A program made the position numbers and the translations under genes. The notes under the pieces were generated by a model. It was not told where the DNA came from. It ran no database searches and saw only the letters and a program-made list of their open reading frames with translations. From Bacillota bacterium (GTDB taxonomy: Bacteria; Bacillota; Sulfobacillia; JABLXB01), in NCBI GenBank assembly GCA_018434225.1, contig JAHDPS010000021.1:1-32968 (forward strand): DNA of 32,968 nt, read 5' to 3'. The first letter of the stretch is position 1; the number at the start of each line of letters is the position of its first letter. Positions 17,346 to 27,745 of this stretch are shown piece after piece.

Positions 17346-17351
17346 GTGTTC

Positions 17352-18164
17352 TTGAAGCCTTTCGTGAAATGGGCTGGTGGCAAGGGACAGATCATCGGGG
17401 AACTGCTCGCCAGGGCGCCTGAGAAATACAATAGATACTTCGAACCATTCGTCGGCGCCGGGGCCCTGTTTTTCGCATTGAATCCGGGGCGCGCGGTGCT
17501 CAACGACAAGAACGAAGAACTGATGAACGCCTATTCAGTGGTCCGGACCAATGTATCGGACCTCGCCGCGTCGCTCGCGACGCACGCCTCGTTGCACGGA
17601 CGGCACGGCCGGGATCACTACTACCGTGTTCGAGGAATCGACCCCCATACTCTATCCAGCGTGGAACGCGCGTCGCGATTCATCTACCTGAACAGAACGT
17701 GCTACAACGGTCTCTGGAGGGTGAATAGCTCGGGCAGATTCAACGTCCCGTTGGGCCGCTACAAGAACCCGAAGATCCTCGACGAAGAAAACTTGCGGGC
17801 GGTGTCGGATCGCCTCCAGAATACCACCATCCTGTGCGTGGATTTCGAGGCGGCCGTCGCCGAGGCGGCACCTGGGGATTTCGTATATTTCGACCCACCG
17901 TATCACCCGCTCAGCGAGACATCGCGATTCACCGGATACGTTGATGAGGGATTCGGTCCGGAGTCCCAGGTCAGGCTGGCCGGGGTGTTCGGAACGCTGG
18001 CGGACCGTGGCGCGAGTGTCATGCTGAGCAATTCGGACACCGCATTCGTGCGGGGACTCTACGACGGATTCAGGATCGACGTCGTCCAGGCCAAGAGGCC
18101 CATCAATTGCAGGGCTGATGGAAGAGGCGTCGTCAACGAATTGATAGTCCGCAACTACTCGTGA
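17352..18164 (+). CDS. D12-class (Dam-like) DNA adenine N6-methyltransferase
   Basis: A 270-residue enzyme that methylates adenine N6 from SAM, probably at a GATC-type site as for many relatives. It begins KPFVKWAGGKGQ, has the SAM-binding FVGAGALFF (33-41), FIYLNRTCYNGLWRVN (110-125), and the catalytic DPPY (181-184), followed by SNSD. The TTG at 17352 is preferred because it gives the family-typical start and lies 8 nt after AAAGGGG; a GTG at 17346 is also possible. No cognate restriction gene is adjacent, so it looks solitary, although an OLD-family nuclease lies 1.3 kb away beyond a metabolic gene. A 17-bp duplication covers the stop codon. Confidence 0.9.
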   Translation: MKPFVKWAGGKGQIIGELLARAPEKYNRYFEPFVGAGALFFALNPGRAVLNDKNEELMNAYSVVRTNVSDLAASLATHASLHGRHGRDHYYRVRGIDPHTLSSVERASRFIYLNRTCYNGLWRVNSSGRFNVPLGRYKNPKILDEENLRAVSDRLQNTTILCVDFEAAVAEAAPGDFVYFDPPYHPLSETSRFTGYVDEGFGPESQVRLAGVFGTLADRGASVMLSNSDTAFVRGLYDGFRIDVVQAKRPINCRADGRGVVNELIVRNYS

Positions 18165-18181
18165 TCCGCAATTACTCGTGA
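18148..18181 (+). repeat. 17-bp tandem duplication at the methyltransferase stop codon
   Basis: TCCGCAACTACTCGTGA (18148-18164) is followed at once by TCCGCAATTACTCGTGA (18165-18181), with one difference. The first copy ends with the TGA stop, so the second is untranslated. Confidence 0.9.
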
Positions 18182-18191
18182 GTTGAAGCGC

Positions 18192-18223
18192 GTCCCAGGA
18201 GCTCCCGCGGTCGCTCCTGGGAC
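18192..18223. terminator. Perfect 11-bp hairpin between convergent genes
   Basis: GTCCCAGGAGC (18192-18202) pairs with GCTCCTGGGAC (18213-18223) around a 10-nt loop, between the methyltransferase (+) and ornithine carbamoyltransferase (-) genes. It probably marks both 3' ends; no T-tract on either side. Confidence 0.6.
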
Positions 18224-18242
18224 AGCCCGCGACAACGCGCCA

Positions 18243-19241
18243 CTACGCGCCGATAGTGGCGATCATGACGGCCTTGATGGTATGCATCCTGTTTTCCGCC
18301 TCGTCGAATACCACCGAGTGCCTGCTCCGGAACACCTCATCGGTGACCTCTCGGATATCCAGGTTTCTACCATGGGCTTCCCTTGCTACTGTTGTCTCCA
18401 TATCGTGGAAAGAAGGCAGGCAATGCATGAAGACCACGTCGTCGTTTTGGGTCGCCTTCACCATGTCCATGGTCACCCGGTACGGGGTGAGCAACCTGAC
18501 CCTCTCCTCCATCTTGGCCTCCTCCCCCATGGAGCACCAGAGGTCGGTGTAAATGGCATCGGCGCCCGCCAAATCCTCGATATCGCTGGTGATCGTTATA
18601 CGAGCCCCAGTCCCTTCCCGCGCGATGACCGCTTCCACCCTGCGGACGATCTCATTGTCCGGGTAGAGGGCCTCAGGGGCATAAGCCACGAAATGTATGC
18701 CCATCTTGGCGCATCCGTACATAAGGGCATACCCCATGTTGTTCCGCGCGTCCCCCACGAACACCAACTTTACCTTATCCAAGGGTTTGTAGATGTGTTC
18801 TTCGATGGTCATCAAATCCGCCAGCACCTGGGTAGGATGATCCACATCGGTCAAACCGTTCCAGACAGGGACGCCCGCGTGCTTGGCCAGCAGTTCGACG
18901 TCTTTCTGGTCATAGCCCCTGTATTCTATACCGTCATAGAAGCGGCCCAGTACTCTTGCCGAATCTTCCAGGGATTCCTTCCTCCTCATCTGGGAGCTAC
19001 CGGAATCCAGGAAGGTCACGTGTGCCCCTTCATCGAGGGCCGCTACCTCAAAAGCGCAACGCGTTCTCGTGGAAGTCTTCTCGAATAGAAGCACGATGTT
19101 CTTACCCACCAGGCGATTCCCCTTGATACCAGCTCTCTTTTCCCTCTTCAAATCGTGCGATAGATTCAGAAGGTACTTGATCTCCCGGGGCGTCAAATCC
19201 ATCAACGTCAAGAAATGGCGCCCGCGCAGATTCACCGGCAT
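18243..19241 (-). CDS. argF: Ornithine carbamoyltransferase
   Basis: A 332-residue cytosolic enzyme that makes citrulline from ornithine and carbamoyl phosphate. It has the carbamoyl-phosphate loop STRTR (57-61), DSGSSQMRRKESLEDSARVL, the HPTQ-type motif in DVDHPTQVLADLMT, FVGDARNNMGYAL, the ornithine-binding DLWCSMGEE and the catalytic MHCLPSFHD, ending VFDEAENRMHTIKAVM. The ATG at 19241 follows AAGGGGGAAT; the frame extends upstream without family sequence. The ending resembles ArcB-type enzymes, but no arcA, arcC, argG or argH is nearby, so biosynthetic (argF) versus catabolic (arcB) use cannot be decided. It stands alone on the minus strand. Confidence 0.93.
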   Translation of the reverse strand: MPVNLRGRHFLTLMDLTPREIKYLLNLSHDLKREKRAGIKGNRLVGKNIVLLFEKTSTRTRCAFEVAALDEGAHVTFLDSGSSQMRRKESLEDSARVLGRFYDGIEYRGYDQKDVELLAKHAGVPVWNGLTDVDHPTQVLADLMTIEEHIYKPLDKVKLVFVGDARNNMGYALMYGCAKMGIHFVAYAPEALYPDNEIVRRVEAVIAREGTGARITITSDIEDLAGADAIYTDLWCSMGEEAKMEERVRLLTPYRVTMDMVKATQNDDVVFMHCLPSFHDMETTVAREAHGRNLDIREVTDEVFRSRHSVVFDEAENRMHTIKAVMIATIGA

Positions 19242-19387
19242 ATCTATTCCCCCTTGTTCCGACCTAGCGTCTGATACGAAGAGACTCTTACGCCGCTTCG
19301 GGCGAATCCCCTTCATCCGTCCATCATTTCCGTGATGCGTTGGGGTCAACCGGAAAATATCCAACAAACGGCTCAGAGACAGCGTGA

Positions 19388-19409
19388 AGGACGCGTTTCG
19401 GCGCGTCCT
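19388..19409. terminator. Hairpin after the OLD-family gene
   Basis: AGGACGCG (19388-19395) pairs with CGCGTCCT (19402-19409), 6-nt loop, about 40 bp past the stop of the minus-strand OLD gene and upstream of the carbamoyltransferase. No T-tract. The rest of 19242-19448 shows no clear promoter, ARG box or riboswitch. Confidence 0.45.
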
Positions 19410-19448
19410 CCACGGCTTCACTCAAGATCGAGACTGCGTCCCGTCCAC

Positions 19449-21560
19449 CTATTCCTGCGGCAGCGCGGCATTGACCGTCGCGAATATCCTCCTTACGGCG
19501 AGTTTCGTCTCCTGGGAAAGCTCGTCGAGAGAACCCATCTTGGCCAGGGACATGCGCAGGGCCTTTGCCACGGCCACCTTATCGAACTTGATCCCGTAGC
19601 CCGACAGCGCCATCTCAACCCTCGTGGCGAGCTGTCTCCCGGGCGGCAGGGCCAATTCCGCGCAGCCTGCCGCGTTGAGCTGCTTCATGTAAACCTCCCT
19701 GACTTTACGGAGATAGAATTCCTCGCGGAAGATATCCTCGATTGAGAAACCGTCTTCCATGCCCATACACTGGGCGAGGCTCAGCACCTGTGCCCGCCCG
19801 GACGGGTATCTACGGAGCCATTTCTCCGCGAGATCCCTCTTCGGGCCCTCCCCTCCATCGTCCGAGTCGAAGAGCACCACAGCGTCCAGGCCGTGATCGA
19901 CCAGGAGAGTCGCTATGTACGCCGCTTCCGCGGCTCCGCCCGAGGGTATGACGAACAGGTCGCCGGGCAACCCCATCTCGCCGGATTGCAGCATCAGCCT
20001 GGACATTTCCGTCAATATCCAATAATCGTCAATTCCCTCGACGACTAGATTCCGTTGAGCCACTAGATAGCTCGGACAGGACGCCACGCTCAGCGCCGAC
20101 CTGATTACGAGTTTTGCTTCCTCCTGGCTCTCCATCAGGTCATCCGCCACAATCGAACCGTTGGATGTCTCGCTGAGAACCCGGATGCGGTCCGGCCTCT
20201 CGAGATCCATCATGAACGGCATGTGAGTCGTATATATGATCGTGTTGTCCGCTGAATAATCGCGCATCCGTTTCAGCAGATCCCTCTGCCCGTCAGGATG
20301 CAGGTGGAGCCCCGGCTCGTCCAGCAGGACGACGCAATTCTTGAACGTGCCCTTGCTCGCGTGCATGAACATCAGGTCAAACGAGAAGAACCATTGGAAG
20401 CCCCGCGAACGCTCCTCGAGCATGATAAGCGACGGATCGTATTCGTCCTTGATGAAAGTGTAGAACTTTTGGCCGTCCGCGCGCAGTTGGACCTGGTATT
20501 TTCTCTGCCTGTGCTTCGACAGATACCGTGTCAGCACAACCGAGGCGTCATCCAGGTCGAACTGCCTCTGTTCCAGATCGACCACATCGCTCTTGTCCAC
20601 CTCTTCGTCGAGATCGAGTCCAGCCATGTCCATTATCGTGAGGAGGGTCCGATCCTCTTCGGTGAGTTCGCCCCGATCCTTGCGTTGTTTCACCTGATCG
20701 ATCTGGGCGGTGCCCGTGAATGTCTGGCAATCGGATATGTAGACGAACGCCGGAATGCGTTTGGATACGTATTCGCGAGCCTTCTCCAGCACGGATGGCG
20801 TGGCCGTCACTCGCTCCAGCACTTGCTTGAGGCTTTCCCTGTAATCATCCATGAATTCCCTTTCCCTGGGAAAGATCGTCTGGAGCGCGCCCGCTTCCTC
20901 CGCGGCGGCCTCATCTTCGGCGGCCGAGGATTCCCCCCGCGACTCCAGCCTGCCGCCGGCGCCCGCGACGTCCGAAGACTGGACTGAGGTCGGCGCTGAC
21001 GTGATCTTGTTCAGCAGGGCCTGAAGGTGCTCGCCACGCGCGCGCGCGAGGTCCGAGAATCTGCCCTCCGAGATCATCTGCTTGGCTTCCTCGAGGCACT
21101 CACGCGCCTTGGAGCCGAACGAGGACCCTACGAGATCCGGCACTCTGGGGAACATTTCGAGAAGGGGATCGAGGTCCTGCTGCATGAGCCTGTCCGGAAA
21201 GAGCTCCGGCGGGAAAAGGACTTCCAGCCTGCCGGCATAATCCCGGCGCACCTCGAACACGCTCGGGATGACGTCCTCGCCCGAAAACTGCCTCAGTTCT
21301 TCAATCTCTTCCGGATCCAGTTCGAAACGGGCGCTGCAGACGACCTGCTCTTCATTCCTATCCTTTCGGAATCTCCTCGGCCATTCTCTATCCATGCAGT
21401 ACGGCTCCGGCACGGACGGGTTCAGCTTGTGAAGCGCCTTGAGGAGCGCTGTTTTACCAGACTCGTTTTTTCCAACCAGGGCAGTCAACGCGCAAACGTC
21501 TATCCAGCCGGAATCCACAATGCACCTGTACATCTGTACACGGAAGCCCACGAGTCTCAT
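19449..21560 (-). CDS. OLD-family ATPase with TOPRIM nuclease domain
   Basis: A 703-residue protein with an SMC/RecF-like ABC ATPase and a C-terminal TOPRIM domain, as in the OLD (overcoming lysogenisation defect) nucleases. Walker A is GKNESGKT (30-37), a signature-like segment is ERSRGFQWFFSF (383-394), Walker B is VVLLDEPGLHLHP (410-422), and the H-loop is YTTHMP (443-448). The TOPRIM part has LVVEG with Glu508 and DSDDGG with Asp565 and Asp567 as likely metal ligands. Residues 190-225 are a low-complexity Ala/Ser/Glu linker. The ATG at 21560 follows TAGGAGGAG. No UvrD-like helicase (GajB partner) is adjacent, which favours a class 1 stand-alone OLD; an anti-phage role is plausible but not shown. 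Confidence 0.9.
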   Translation of the reverse strand: MRLVGFRVQMYRCIVDSGWIDVCALTALVGKNESGKTALLKALHKLNPSVPEPYCMDREWPRRFRKDRNEEQVVCSARFELDPEEIEELRQFSGEDVIPSVFEVRRDYAGRLEVLFPPELFPDRLMQQDLDPLLEMFPRVPDLVGSSFGSKARECLEEAKQMISEGRFSDLARARGEHLQALLNKITSAPTSVQSSDVAGAGGRLESRGESSAAEDEAAAEEAGALQTIFPREREFMDDYRESLKQVLERVTATPSVLEKAREYVSKRIPAFVYISDCQTFTGTAQIDQVKQRKDRGELTEEDRTLLTIMDMAGLDLDEEVDKSDVVDLEQRQFDLDDASVVLTRYLSKHRQRKYQVQLRADGQKFYTFIKDEYDPSLIMLEERSRGFQWFFSFDLMFMHASKGTFKNCVVLLDEPGLHLHPDGQRDLLKRMRDYSADNTIIYTTHMPFMMDLERPDRIRVLSETSNGSIVADDLMESQEEAKLVIRSALSVASCPSYLVAQRNLVVEGIDDYWILTEMSRLMLQSGEMGLPGDLFVIPSGGAAEAAYIATLLVDHGLDAVVLFDSDDGGEGPKRDLAEKWLRRYPSGRAQVLSLAQCMGMEDGFSIEDIFREEFYLRKVREVYMKQLNAAGCAELALPPGRQLATRVEMALSGYGIKFDKVAVAKALRMSLAKMGSLDELSQETKLAVRRIFATVNAALPQE

Positions 21561-21735: not shown

Positions 21736-22659
21736 ATGATACGCGGATATGCTCTCGCCCTCGGTTCGGCCGTCTTCATCGGAATGAACACGCTGGCGAA
21801 CAAGATCATACTCAACGCGGGAATCGACGCGCTTACGGCCGGGGCATTGACGTACCTGTGCGCCTCCTGTGTGTTCGTCCCTCTCGCCATCCGCTCGCTC
21901 AGCCGTGGCCGGCTGCCCCGCGGGATCAAATCGTCCGTTCTCGCGTGGTGGCTTCTATCGGGGGCCGTGTGCGGGCCGGTGCTCTATTTCCTCGGACTGG
22001 AACGCACGAGCGCCATCCACGGTTCGATACTGAACAACCTCGAATCGGCATTCACGGCCGTGCTCGCGTTCGGGTTTTTCCGCGAACGCCTCGATAGGCG
22101 GGGAGTAGTCGGGAGCATCCTGATATTGACGGGCGCGGCGTGGCTGTCGTGGCCGGCTCCCGCTCAAACGGCCGCCTCTGCGGGCCAAGTGACGGTGACC
22201 GGAGACATCCTCATGGCGATTGGGTATTTCTTCTGGGCGCTTGAAGCCAACCTCATCCGCCTCATGGACCCATCCGTCCCGGCAGTCGTCATGCTGGCGG
22301 CCAAGACAATGGCGACCAGTCTCGTCATGGCGGTGCTCTCGTTGTGGAAGGGAAGCGGGCTCGCTGTTCCCCGATCGACAATCCCGGCGATCGTCGCGAG
22401 CGGCGGCGTGTTCCTGGTCCTGTCCGTACTGTTCTATTACACGGCCACCCGCCTGATCGGCGCCGGCCGGTGCGGGCTGATCATCAGCACGTCCGGATTC
22501 TTCGGGACCATGGGCGCCGTGTTGTTCTTGCGCGAGGCGTTTTCGACGGGGATGATCGCACCTATCTCTGTGATCGCTCTCGGTCTGGCGGCGCTTGTAG
22601 GGGTCAGCCCAGCCTCCCGGTCACGTAGTCGTTCGTCCGACGGTCACGGGGGTTCATGA
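21736..22659 (+). CDS. EamA/DMT-family transporter
   Basis: A 307-residue membrane protein with about ten hydrophobic helices in two EamA repeats. The first half has SAVFIGMNTLANKIIL and GPVLYFLGLERTSAIHGSILNNLESAFTAVLAFGFFRERLDRR split over helices 3-5; the second repeat has GYFFWALEANLIR and a related helix pattern with STSGFFGTMGAVLFLREAF. Drug/metabolite transporters of this kind usually export amino acids or similar small metabolites; the substrate is unknown. The ATG at 21736 lacks a strong ribosome site. The final 56 bp overlap the 3' end of the convergent second pstB gene, giving a polar Arg/Ser tail (SRSRSRSSDGHGGS) that is probably not conserved. It is divergent from the OLD gene. 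Confidence 0.85.
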   Translation: MIRGYALALGSAVFIGMNTLANKIILNAGIDALTAGALTYLCASCVFVPLAIRSLSRGRLPRGIKSSVLAWWLLSGAVCGPVLYFLGLERTSAIHGSILNNLESAFTAVLAFGFFRERLDRRGVVGSILILTGAAWLSWPAPAQTAASAGQVTVTGDILMAIGYFFWALEANLIRLMDPSVPAVVMLAAKTMATSLVMAVLSLWKGSGLAVPRSTIPAIVASGGVFLVLSVLFYYTATRLIGAGRCGLIISTSGFFGTMGAVLFLREAFSTGMIAPISVIALGLAALVGVSPASRSRSRSSDGHGGS

Positions 22660-23341
22660 AAAGACTCCTGGTTGGACCGGATTCGATAACCTCGCCGCTG
22701 AGCATGAATATGGTATGGTCGGAAGCCCGCGCTGCCTGCTGCATGTTGTGAGTGACGATCACGATGGTGTATTCGTCGGCGAGCTGGGCGAGGAGGTCTT
22801 CAATCCTCAGCGTCGTGTACGGATCCAGCGCCGAGCACGGCTCATCGAGCAAGACGATGTCGGGGCGAGTCGCGATCGCCCTCGCAATGCACAGTTGCTG
22901 CTGTTGCCCCATCGAAAGCCTCAAGGCCGGACTTCTGAGCTCGTCTTTAAGATCATCCCACAGATTGACCTCCGACAGCGCTCTGTGCACTATCGGTTCG
23001 AGATCCGCGGCAGCCGTCACTCCGTGAACGCGCGGGGCCACGGCGACGTTGTCGAACACCGAGATCGGGAATACCGCGGGCCTTTGGAACACCATCCCGA
23101 CGCGCCGCCTCAACTCGATGACGTCGTAATCGGGCGAGTATATGTCGCGCCCCTCTATCAGCACCCTGCCCTCGACGCGGGCGTGAGGCACTCTGTCGTT
23201 CATCCTGTTGATGCATCTGAGCAGCGTGGATTTACCGCAGCCCGACGGCCCTATGATGGCAGTTATGGCGTTCTCGCGGAAATCCGCGGAGACGCCCTTC
23301 AGGGCCATGAATGCGCCGTAGTAGAGTCTCAGGTTGTCCAC
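22604..23341 (-). CDS. pstB: Phosphate ABC transporter ATP-binding protein, second PstB
   Basis: A 245-residue ABC ATPase. Walker A is GPSGCGKST (31-39), the Q-loop VFQRP has its Gln (Gln86), Walker B is IVLLDEP (162-168) and the H-loop His198 is present. The signature, however, is LSMGQ (142-146) instead of LSGGQ. The segment SGCGKSTLLRCINRMND is diagnostic for PstB. The GTG at 23341 is the only usable start, since a stop codon lies in frame shortly upstream, so the N-terminus is a few residues shorter than usual. It is the last gene of the pst cluster, 49 bp after the other pstB, and its 3' end overlaps the EamA gene. Together the two probably form an asymmetric ATPase heterodimer. Confidence 0.9.
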   Translation of the reverse strand: MDNLRLYYGAFMALKGVSADFRENAITAIIGPSGCGKSTLLRCINRMNDRVPHARVEGRVLIEGRDIYSPDYDVIELRRRVGMVFQRPAVFPISVFDNVAVAPRVHGVTAAADLEPIVHRALSEVNLWDDLKDELRSPALRLSMGQQQQLCIARAIATRPDIVLLDEPCSALDPYTTLRIEDLLAQLADEYTIVIVTHNMQQAARASDHTIFMLSGEVIESGPTRSLFMNPRDRRTNDYVTGRLG

Positions 23342-23390
23342 CCTGGCCTTGAATCTCTCCGTCGGTTATCTCTCCCGTTGGCTACAAGTG

Positions 23391-24149
23391 CTATCCGAGC
23401 CGGCCGCTGACGAAAGCCTCGGTGCGCTGATCCCCGGGACTCGTGAATATCTGCGCGGCCGGAGCGATTTCGACTATCTCTCCCTGGAAAAGGAACCCCA
23501 CCCTGGACCCGACGCGGGCAGCCTGGTGCGGGTTATGGGTGGCCAGTACGATGGTATACTTCTCGGCCAGATCCCTCAGAAGATCCTCAATCCTGAGCGT
23601 CGAGATCGGGTCGAGGCCGGACGTCGGCTCGTCCAACAGGATGACGTCCGGTTCCAGCGCGAGAATTCGCGCGAGCGCAAGGCGCTGCTGCTGCCCCCCT
23701 GACAGCCTGTCCGCCCTCTCGCCGAGCCTGTCCTTCACTTCATCCCAGAGGGCGGCCGCTATGAGGGATTTCTCGACAACAGTCGATATTACGACGGCGG
23801 CTCTCTCCCCCGCCCTCCTGAGACCGTAAGCCACATTCTCGTAAATGGATGCCGGCAGCACCGTCGGCATGGCGAATACCATGCCGACCCTTCTCCTGAG
23901 ACTCGTTACGTCGACACTGGGATCGTATATGCTCCGGCCGCCGACGAACACGGAGCCGGAACAACGGCCCGAACCGACCAGGTCGTTCAGCCTGTTCAGG
24001 CACCTGAGCATCGTAGTCTTGCCGCTGCCGGTGGGGCCCATCACTGTGAACAGCTCGTTCCCGGCGATCTCGATGTTGATGGACCTCAGAGCCTGCACTT
24101 CCCCATACGCGTAACTGAAATTCTCGAAACGGATCCCGTTGTGGTTCAC
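23391..24149 (-). CDS. pstB: Phosphate ABC transporter ATP-binding protein, first PstB-like
   Basis: A 252-residue ABC ATPase. Walker A GPTGSGKT (38-45), signature LSGGQQQR (149-156), Walker B VILLDEP (169-175) and H-loop His205 are intact, but the Q-loop reads VFAMPTVLP, so the canonical Gln is Ala93. SGKTTMLRCLNRLNDL keeps the PstB pattern. The start is a GTG at 24149 preceded by GAGGGTGGG. It lies 13 bp after pstA. Because its Q-loop is altered and its partner's signature is altered, each nucleotide site of a heterodimer would have different composition; I recall similar paired PstBs in other anaerobes but cannot check this here. Confidence 0.9.
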   Translation of the reverse strand: MNHNGIRFENFSYAYGEVQALRSINIEIAGNELFTVMGPTGSGKTTMLRCLNRLNDLVGSGRCSGSVFVGGRSIYDPSVDVTSLRRRVGMVFAMPTVLPASIYENVAYGLRRAGERAAVVISTVVEKSLIAAALWDEVKDRLGERADRLSGGQQQRLALARILALEPDVILLDEPTSGLDPISTLRIEDLLRDLAEKYTIVLATHNPHQAARVGSRVGFLFQGEIVEIAPAAQIFTSPGDQRTEAFVSGRLG

Positions 24150-26794: not shown

Positions 26795-26837
26795 AAAAAA
26801 GGCCGCGCGAGCGACCCAAAATCGCTCCCGCGGCCTT
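26795..26837 (-). terminator. Intrinsic terminator of the GNAT gene
   Basis: A 16-bp stem with one mismatch (26799-26814 with 26822-26837) and a 7-nt loop, followed on the minus strand by six T (26795-26800). It starts 9 bp after the acetyltransferase stop and separates that unit from pstS. Confidence 0.92.
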
Positions 26838-26845
26838 ACTGCAAT

Positions 26846-27508
26846 CTATCCCTGGGATCTACCGTTCCTCGGCAGCTTCTTCATGTACACGAGCGACGTG
26901 TAGAATGTTCCCTCGATGCCTTCATATCTTACCCCGACCAGCCTGTACTTTTGTTTGCGCCTGAACTCGAGCGAGGCGTAGTTAGGTGCGGGAGCGATCA
27001 CCGTCTCCGCGAATACATTCTCGATGCCCTTGAGATTGATGTCGCCGAGCAGCCGCTCGTACAACATGCTCCCGATCCCCTGACCTGTGGATCCCGCCAT
27101 GACGGCTGTCCTGTCCACTACCACGAACTTCTCAAGATCCCGCCTGTCGAACTCGGGGTGCCAGTGAGTGCGCGCCTGCCAGTCCGGGTAATATTCCAAC
27201 CACGCGTCCCGGCCGCAAGCCATGAGAAACCCGCACACCCTCTTGCTCTCAGCGACATAGAAGTGATCCATCTCCAGGGCCTTGCGGGCGAATTCCCTGC
27301 GGTATCTCAAGGGGTCCGACGCATAGTTCGTTAGCAGGAACCCCATCGACGGGTCCTGAACGGAGTTTCCCACACTGCACGCTACTCGAAGGATATCGTG
27401 AGCATCATCGGGAGTCGCTTTGCGCACCTTCAGGCGATGCGTAAGCGGGTTGCGGGCGACCAAACCTTCCGGACTGATCGTGGGTGAGCCGGCGATAGCA
27501 CTAGACAC
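26846..27508 (-). CDS. GNAT family N-acetyltransferase under a c-di-AMP riboswitch
   Basis: A 220-residue acetyltransferase. A 28-residue tail precedes the core, which begins LKVRKATPDDAHDILRVA. The acetyl-CoA loop is STGQGIGSMLYERLL, preceded by the beta-4 strand EKFVVVDRTAV, and followed by NYASLEFRRKQKYRLVGVRYE, the beta-6/7 region. The acceptor substrate is unknown; it could be a small molecule or protein. The start is a GTG at 27508, 8 nt after GAGGAGG. The riboswitch ends just before this ribosome site and an independent promoter lies upstream, so the gene is a single-gene unit directly controlled by the RNA, ended by an intrinsic terminator. A role in osmolyte or envelope metabolism is inferred only from that control. 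Confidence 0.85.
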   Translation of the reverse strand: MSSAIAGSPTISPEGLVARNPLTHRLKVRKATPDDAHDILRVACSVGNSVQDPSMGFLLTNYASDPLRYRREFARKALEMDHFYVAESKRVCGFLMACGRDAWLEYYPDWQARTHWHPEFDRRDLEKFVVVDRTAVMAGSTGQGIGSMLYERLLGDINLKGIENVFAETVIAPAPNYASLEFRRKQKYRLVGVRYEGIEGTFYTSLVYMKKLPRNGRSQG

Positions 27509-27524
27509 ACCAATTACCTCCTCT

Positions 27525-27650
27525 TTCCACGCTTACGAGGTTAGCTGACGGGTTCGGATCGAAAGAGCTGACCCTACTCGCGTCCCGCGAGATTCACCCC
27601 GAAGTGCTGGGTTCCCCCGTTCCTCCCTCGGGAGGATTCAGCGTTCGTCA
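27525..27650 (-). ncRNA. ydaO/yuaA riboswitch (cyclic di-AMP)
   Basis: The minus strand carries the conserved order of this class: CGCTGAATCC at the 5' side, GGGGGAACCCA, TTCGGGGTGAATCTC, AGTAGGGTCAG, then CCGAACCCGTCAGCTAACC and CTCGTAAGCG. P1 can form from ACGCT (5') and AGCGT (3'). At about 125 nt it is of the compact type known from Thermoanaerobacter. The class binds c-di-AMP and usually turns genes off; it typically controls cell-wall hydrolases, potassium transport or osmolyte genes. Here the aptamer ends about 5 nt before the Shine-Dalgarno of the GNAT gene with no separate terminator hairpin, which suggests control of translation initiation. Confidence 0.93.
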
Positions 27651-27715
27651 TTATCCGACGTAGCCTCTCCTCTAGCTCATCGCCCCCTTCCACCCGCGGA
27701 AAGTCTACAAATGGT

Positions 27716-27745
27716 ATTTTATCACATCTGAGCCTGATGGTTCAA
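27716..27745 (-). promoter_or_regulatory. Promoter driving the c-di-AMP riboswitch and GNAT gene
   Basis: On the minus strand TTGAAC (27745-27740), 18-bp spacer, TAAAAT (27721-27716). It overlaps the stop of the upstream hydrolase gene. Transcription would begin near 27709 and give a leader of about 200 nt that contains the complete aptamer. Confidence 0.65.

Follow-up and report, generated by a model that had tools for sequence, protein, structure and literature searches.

What does a c-di-AMP riboswitch control when the gene that follows it encodes a single GNAT acetyltransferase? The question is raised by a stretch of 32,968 nucleotides from a Bacillota bacterium of the class Sulfobacillia (contig JAHDPS010000021.1), which we call the window. 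A preliminary description, made from the letters alone, had placed there a near-complete ydaO/yuaA aptamer with its own promoter, sitting right at the ribosome site of a lone GNAT gene and apparently acting on translation, and had suggested acetylated osmolytes or wall modification as the outcome. The scan with RF00379 that it proposed gave a highly significant match by cmscan (window 27653-27516, minus strand, 98.4 bits against a gathering score of 38 bits, E 2.2e-22), which is the sole above-threshold match when the window is compared with all Rfam families. The RNA is almost certainly a c-di-AMP riboswitch of this class and, judged from its sequence, should bind c-di-AMP. It is also full length rather than near-complete, since positions 1-134 of the 134 in the model are covered. 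The promoter is found where it was expected, upstream of the aptamer (Table 1): it is sigma-70-like with 9 of 12 matches to the consensus, although the motif scan alone is not significant (one site found against 0.6 expected in shuffled sequences), and an extended -10 can also be seen by eye upstream of the leaders of three other genomes (G001, G002 and G011). As had been described, the Shine-Dalgarno sequence lies at the very 3' end of the aptamer.

Table 1. Positions in the window of the elements of the riboswitch-GNAT unit.
Feature	Position	Strand	Basis
Promoter, TTGAAC (27745-27740), 18 nt, TAAAAT (27721-27716), TG-extended -10	27716..27745	-	Consensus scan
c-di-AMP riboswitch aptamer (RF00379; ydaO/yuaA), full length	27516..27653	-	cmscan
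Pseudoknot 5' strand CUCUUUC, apical loop of the aptamer	27561..27567	-	Pairs with 27527-27521
Pseudoknot 3' strand GAAAGAG (tail), abuts the Shine-Dalgarno sequence and overlaps it by two bases	27521..27527	-	Complementarity, alignment
Shine-Dalgarno sequence AGGAGGU, about 8 nt before GTG	27516..27522	-	Sequence
GNAT acetyltransferase gene, GTG start, 220 aa, proposed beta-lysine N-acetyltransferase	26846..27508	-	ORF, predicted fold, orthologues
Intrinsic terminator closing the GNAT unit	26795..26837	-	-32.1 kcal/mol, z -6.0, then U-run

The identity of the protein is given by its predicted fold rather than by a Pfam cut-off. An AlphaFold2 model of the window protein, built on seven relatives (mean pLDDT 85.9), predicts one compact GNAT domain preceded by a short disordered N-terminal stretch, and Foldseek matches it to many GNATs at probability 1.00 (best E 1.9e-9, a phosphinothricin acetyltransferase), in agreement with the acetyltransferase originally named. 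The best structural matches in the PDB are phosphinothricin/ArsN acetyltransferases, and PaiA is also among the matches. The phosphinothricin/arsinothricin enzymes (PDB 9igl and 5wph) superimpose at TM-scores of about 0.5-0.6, but they share only 16-20% identity with the window protein, which has a longer chain and no resistance context. By sequence, the protein falls just below the gathering score of PF00583 (Acetyltransf_1; 18.3 against 20.7 bits), whereas three relatives exceed it (21.8-25.6 bits); its NCBIfam matches are weak and ArsN1b-like, and a sequence search of the PDB gives a best E of only about 0.6. Thus, the gene belongs to a divergent, unnamed GNAT family whose members pass the Pfam threshold in part.

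Searches of relatives and of the contigs of named genomes recovered 22 members of this family in 21 genomes. An RF00379 aptamer lies directly upstream of the GNAT start in 12 of them, namely in the window and in 11 further genomes (G001, G002, G011, G536 [L048], G537 [L049], G570, G571, G572, G593, G626 and G679), so that the orthologues retain the leader well beyond the window; these leader-bearing members come from the window's class, where they fall in families f1 and f10, and from the G536 group. The other 10 members (a paralogue in G002 beside CobQ, and those of G538, G640, G708, G424, G539, G541, G542, G543 and G544) have no such leader, and rescanning them for RF00379 at E up to 0.5 gave nothing. 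On the protein tree, computed without the truncated G570 gene, the distribution of the leader takes three changes, and the AU test does not reject a tree that unites the leader-bearing genes in one clade (p 0.43). The leaderless G002 paralogue (L041 4160-4795 in G002:C66, also L051) shares four bases with the start of a cobyric acid synthase-like gene, which suggests a different role for it.

A hint to the substrate came from G424, in which a GNAT gene without leader lies next to, and diverges from, a gene above the TIGR03820 cut-off for lysine 2,3-aminomutase. This arrangement suggested synthesis of N-acetyl-beta-lysine, in which AblA acts before AblB, and the suggestion was then tested by co-occurrence. 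A lysine 2,3-aminomutase or KamA-family gene above cut-off is present in all 21 GNAT genomes (a KamA-family match in 8/8 and a TIGR03820 match in the 13/13 others). Among 148 relatives of G536, TIGR03820 is matched above cut-off in 30, comprising 10/10 genomes with the GNAT and 20/138 without it (Fisher 3e-8), and in the window's class an aminomutase occurs in 4/4 GNAT genomes against 53/150; because the genomes are related and Fisher's test treats them as independent, these p-values overstate independence. The two genes are neighbours or nearly so in only two genomes, G424 and G542, the latter holding aminomutase, amino-acid ABC transporter and GNAT within 4.4 kb, with the transporter filling the 2.5-kb gap. 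The contexts of the aminomutase vary: kdd and kamB lie on either side of the gene in the window's genome, as in lysine fermentation, whereas G424, G541, G542, G572, G640 and G708 each have at least one aminomutase gene without fermentation genes beside it. The common factor would therefore be beta-lysine itself. No c-di-AMP riboswitch was found among the aminomutase genes scanned in the GNAT genomes.

In the pathway that we propose, lysine 2,3-aminomutase would supply beta-lysine and the GNAT would acetylate it to the compatible solute N-epsilon-acetyl-beta-lysine, in the role of AblB but from outside the AblB family. Membership in that family was rejected on the TIGR03827 model score: the model finds no match in three relatives at E up to 10 or in the window protein at E up to 1, and it stays below cut-off in all eight GNAT genomes searched. 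The two enzymes would share the GNAT fold, the reaction and the genomic company of the aminomutase, but the window family is shorter (about 210 aa, the AblB model having 266 positions) and is not in an operon with ablA. Independent support comes from Dehalobacter sp. CF, whose ablA is preceded by a tandem Na+/c-di-AMP riboswitch that is turned off by c-di-AMP, which its authors explain as control of N-acetyl-beta-lysine synthesis (PMC9337991). In both cases c-di-AMP would shut off a step toward this osmolyte; there, however, the first enzyme is controlled, through a Na+ aptamer and terminators, whereas the window riboswitch governs a different gene, for the proposed second step, with neither Na+ aptamer nor terminator. 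The position of the window's aminomutase amid lysine-fermentation genes would account for the riboswitch being confined to the step of the acetylation branch.

Beta-lysine is thus a somewhat favoured candidate for the substrate, and the riboswitch probably governs whether an acetylated osmoprotectant is produced. Of the outcomes first suggested, acetylated osmolytes are the best-supported reading, given the co-occurrence and the published control of ablA; wall modification found no support. The whole account, in which a single-gene unit switched off by c-di-AMP makes N-acetyl-beta-lysine, is in our estimate slightly favoured too. More tentatively still, this unnamed GNAT family may take the place of AblB where anaerobic Bacillota produce beta-lysine, which several of them do through lysine fermentation, with c-di-AMP gating the branch point between burning beta-lysine and keeping it as an osmoprotectant through three expression platforms that use the same aptamer strand. 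The locus would add a conserved target to the c-di-AMP regulon, and the family gains a testable function, as a candidate for the beta-lysine acetyltransferase that is missing from bacteria with lysine 2,3-aminomutase and without AblB. If the reading is true, lysine fermentation is linked to osmoprotection by one second messenger, c-di-AMP.

The main competitor retains the OFF riboswitch and replaces the substrate by another small amine or amino acid, such as alpha-lysine, ornithine, diaminobutyrate or a glufosinate-like compound, which might still serve as an osmolyte. The structural resemblance to phosphinothricin/ArsN acetyltransferases and PaiA, the weak ArsN1b matches and the distance of most family members from an aminomutase gene all speak for it, but it leaves unexplained why all 21 GNAT genomes, against 20 of 138 GNAT-free relatives, have the aminomutase, and we regard it as rather unlikely. 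A protein or peptidoglycan/cell-wall acetyltransferase, through which c-di-AMP would tune wall modification, is much less probable. Wall hydrolases are among the classical targets of these riboswitches (PMC9337991, PMC9960051), and beta-lactamase-fold, SLH and CAP genes lie upstream in the window; these neighbours, however, lie upstream of the promoter, neither G011 nor the G536 group has them beside the GNAT, the family shows no consistent link to any wall gene, and the predicted protein is a single compact domain.

Returning to N-acetyl-beta-lysine synthesis as the favoured output, we consider how c-di-AMP would reach the ribosome site. Each of the 12 leaders has an apical loop, CUCUUUC or in G011 CUCCUUC, that complements a tail GAAAGAG or a close variant of it (GAAGGAG in G011), found in the window RNA 27653-27500 within GAAAGAGGAGG. 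Across an alignment of 11 leaders, this 7-bp loop-tail pseudoknot is paired in 100% of cells, and its helix shows one compensatory double change (G011) and several G-U changes. At high c-di-AMP, when K+ and turgor are sufficient, the aptamer would fold and its loop would pair with the tail; in the window, the paired tail would abut and partly overlap the Shine-Dalgarno sequence, whose GGAGGU forms an anti-Shine-Dalgarno duplex of -9.9 kcal/mol, so that the ribosome site would be occluded and GNAT synthesis off. A drop in c-di-AMP upon osmotic upshift would open the pseudoknot and the GNAT would be made. Because the pseudoknot overlaps the Shine-Dalgarno sequence by only two bases, occlusion in the window must be partly steric.

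The same strand appears in three expression platforms, which cover 11 of the 12 leaders and leave G572 outside. In the first, the tail abuts the Shine-Dalgarno sequence with a two-base overlap (the window's genome G000, G001 and G002), or the pseudoknot strand itself holds four of the six Shine-Dalgarno bases (G011). In the second (G536, G537, G570 and G571), the tail GAAAGAGGG or a variant, when free, can pair with CCCUCUUUC or a variant, which otherwise pairs with the Shine-Dalgarno sequence GAAAGGGGAG. In the third (G593, G626 and G679), an intrinsic terminator follows, and CUCC segments within or next to this terminator offer a pairing partner for the tail GGAGG. Holding the tail in the pseudoknot predicts the OFF state in all three. 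Energy-model folding of the leaders shows a clear switch in G571 and G679, a partial one in G536 and little or no switching in G537, G570, G572, G593 and G626, a result to be read with the fact that nearest-neighbour folding cannot represent the pseudoknot.

Control of the GNAT by c-di-AMP in the OFF direction is very likely. For the window, both the direction and the translational level are drawn by analogy with known riboswitches, and the latter, as first proposed, would fit the layout, with the Shine-Dalgarno sequence at the aptamer's 3' end and no terminator found between aptamer and GNAT start codon. Translational c-di-AMP riboswitches are already known: that of nlpC in C. glutamicum is an OFF switch without a terminator (PMC9960051). 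The window riboswitch likewise has no terminator and would also act on translation; the C. glutamicum target, however, is a wall peptidase, and the authors propose a different CUCC/GGAG pairing (PMC9960051). Compared with RF00379 members in general, the window leader is alike in its full-length aptamer with all helices and pseudoknot, in its position and in its predicted OFF direction; unlike them, it has one GNAT gene as target and a tail that abuts and overlaps the Shine-Dalgarno sequence instead of feeding a terminator. An ON switch, or a mainly transcriptional action, in the window's species would be favoured by the competing local structure that the Shine-Dalgarno region can also form in the free state, but the absence of a terminator before the start codon, the OFF behaviour of the c-di-AMP riboswitches described in PMC9337991 and PMC9960051 and the four Shine-Dalgarno bases inside the G011 pseudoknot strand make it quite improbable.

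That the gene stands alone, as first described, is shown by the terminator directly 3' of its stop codon, AAGGCCGCG-GAGCGAUU-loop-GGUCGCUC-CGCGGCCUU-UUUU. A strong stem also follows the GNAT in G011, where the next gene is convergent, and in G001 a stem was seen by eye, upstream of the stretch folded for terminators. The pstS-pstC-pstA-pstB-pstB genes begin 135 bp beyond the GNAT on the same strand, and pst is likewise downstream in G001 and G002; because a terminator of -32.1 kcal/mol stands between, the GNAT is a single-gene unit and pst, on this reading, is separate. That the riboswitch actually serves this phosphate operon, with the GNAT merely its first gene, was rejected as most improbable, since the U-run-bearing terminator closes the GNAT and the leader and GNAT are kept without pst in G011 and the G536 group. 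The pst operon ends with two adjacent, divergent pstB-like ATPase genes (window 22604-24149). Farther off, at 17346-21560, a DNA adenine methylase-like gene is close to an opposite-strand gene of 703 aa that looks by eye like an OLD-family ATPase; a similar pair is present in G002 (L039 49-3268), and the two genes may form a defence pair.

The GNAT is the riboswitch's single gene, but not the only possible c-di-AMP target in the window's genome, which holds one further RF00379 match, on contig C259. Promoter (TTGACC-17-TATAAT) and intrinsic terminator are both present at this second riboswitch (L003, G000:C259, 3963-3825 minus), but no conserved ORF lies downstream; it reads into the 3'-terminal part of spoIID in antisense orientation. 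Aptamer, terminator and spoIID are arranged in this way in three genera, including at L043 7359-7224 minus and L042 1884-1748 minus, and the RNA is a candidate c-di-AMP-controlled antisense RNA. Other c-di-AMP riboswitches of the relatives (L045 6983-7117 and G011:C21:158896-159029) lie in front of genes for a peptidoglycan-binding and a LysM protein, classical targets of the class. In G572, the aptamer (L095 1097-1403) carries an insertion of about 170 nt in one peripheral hairpin and still scores 88 bits.
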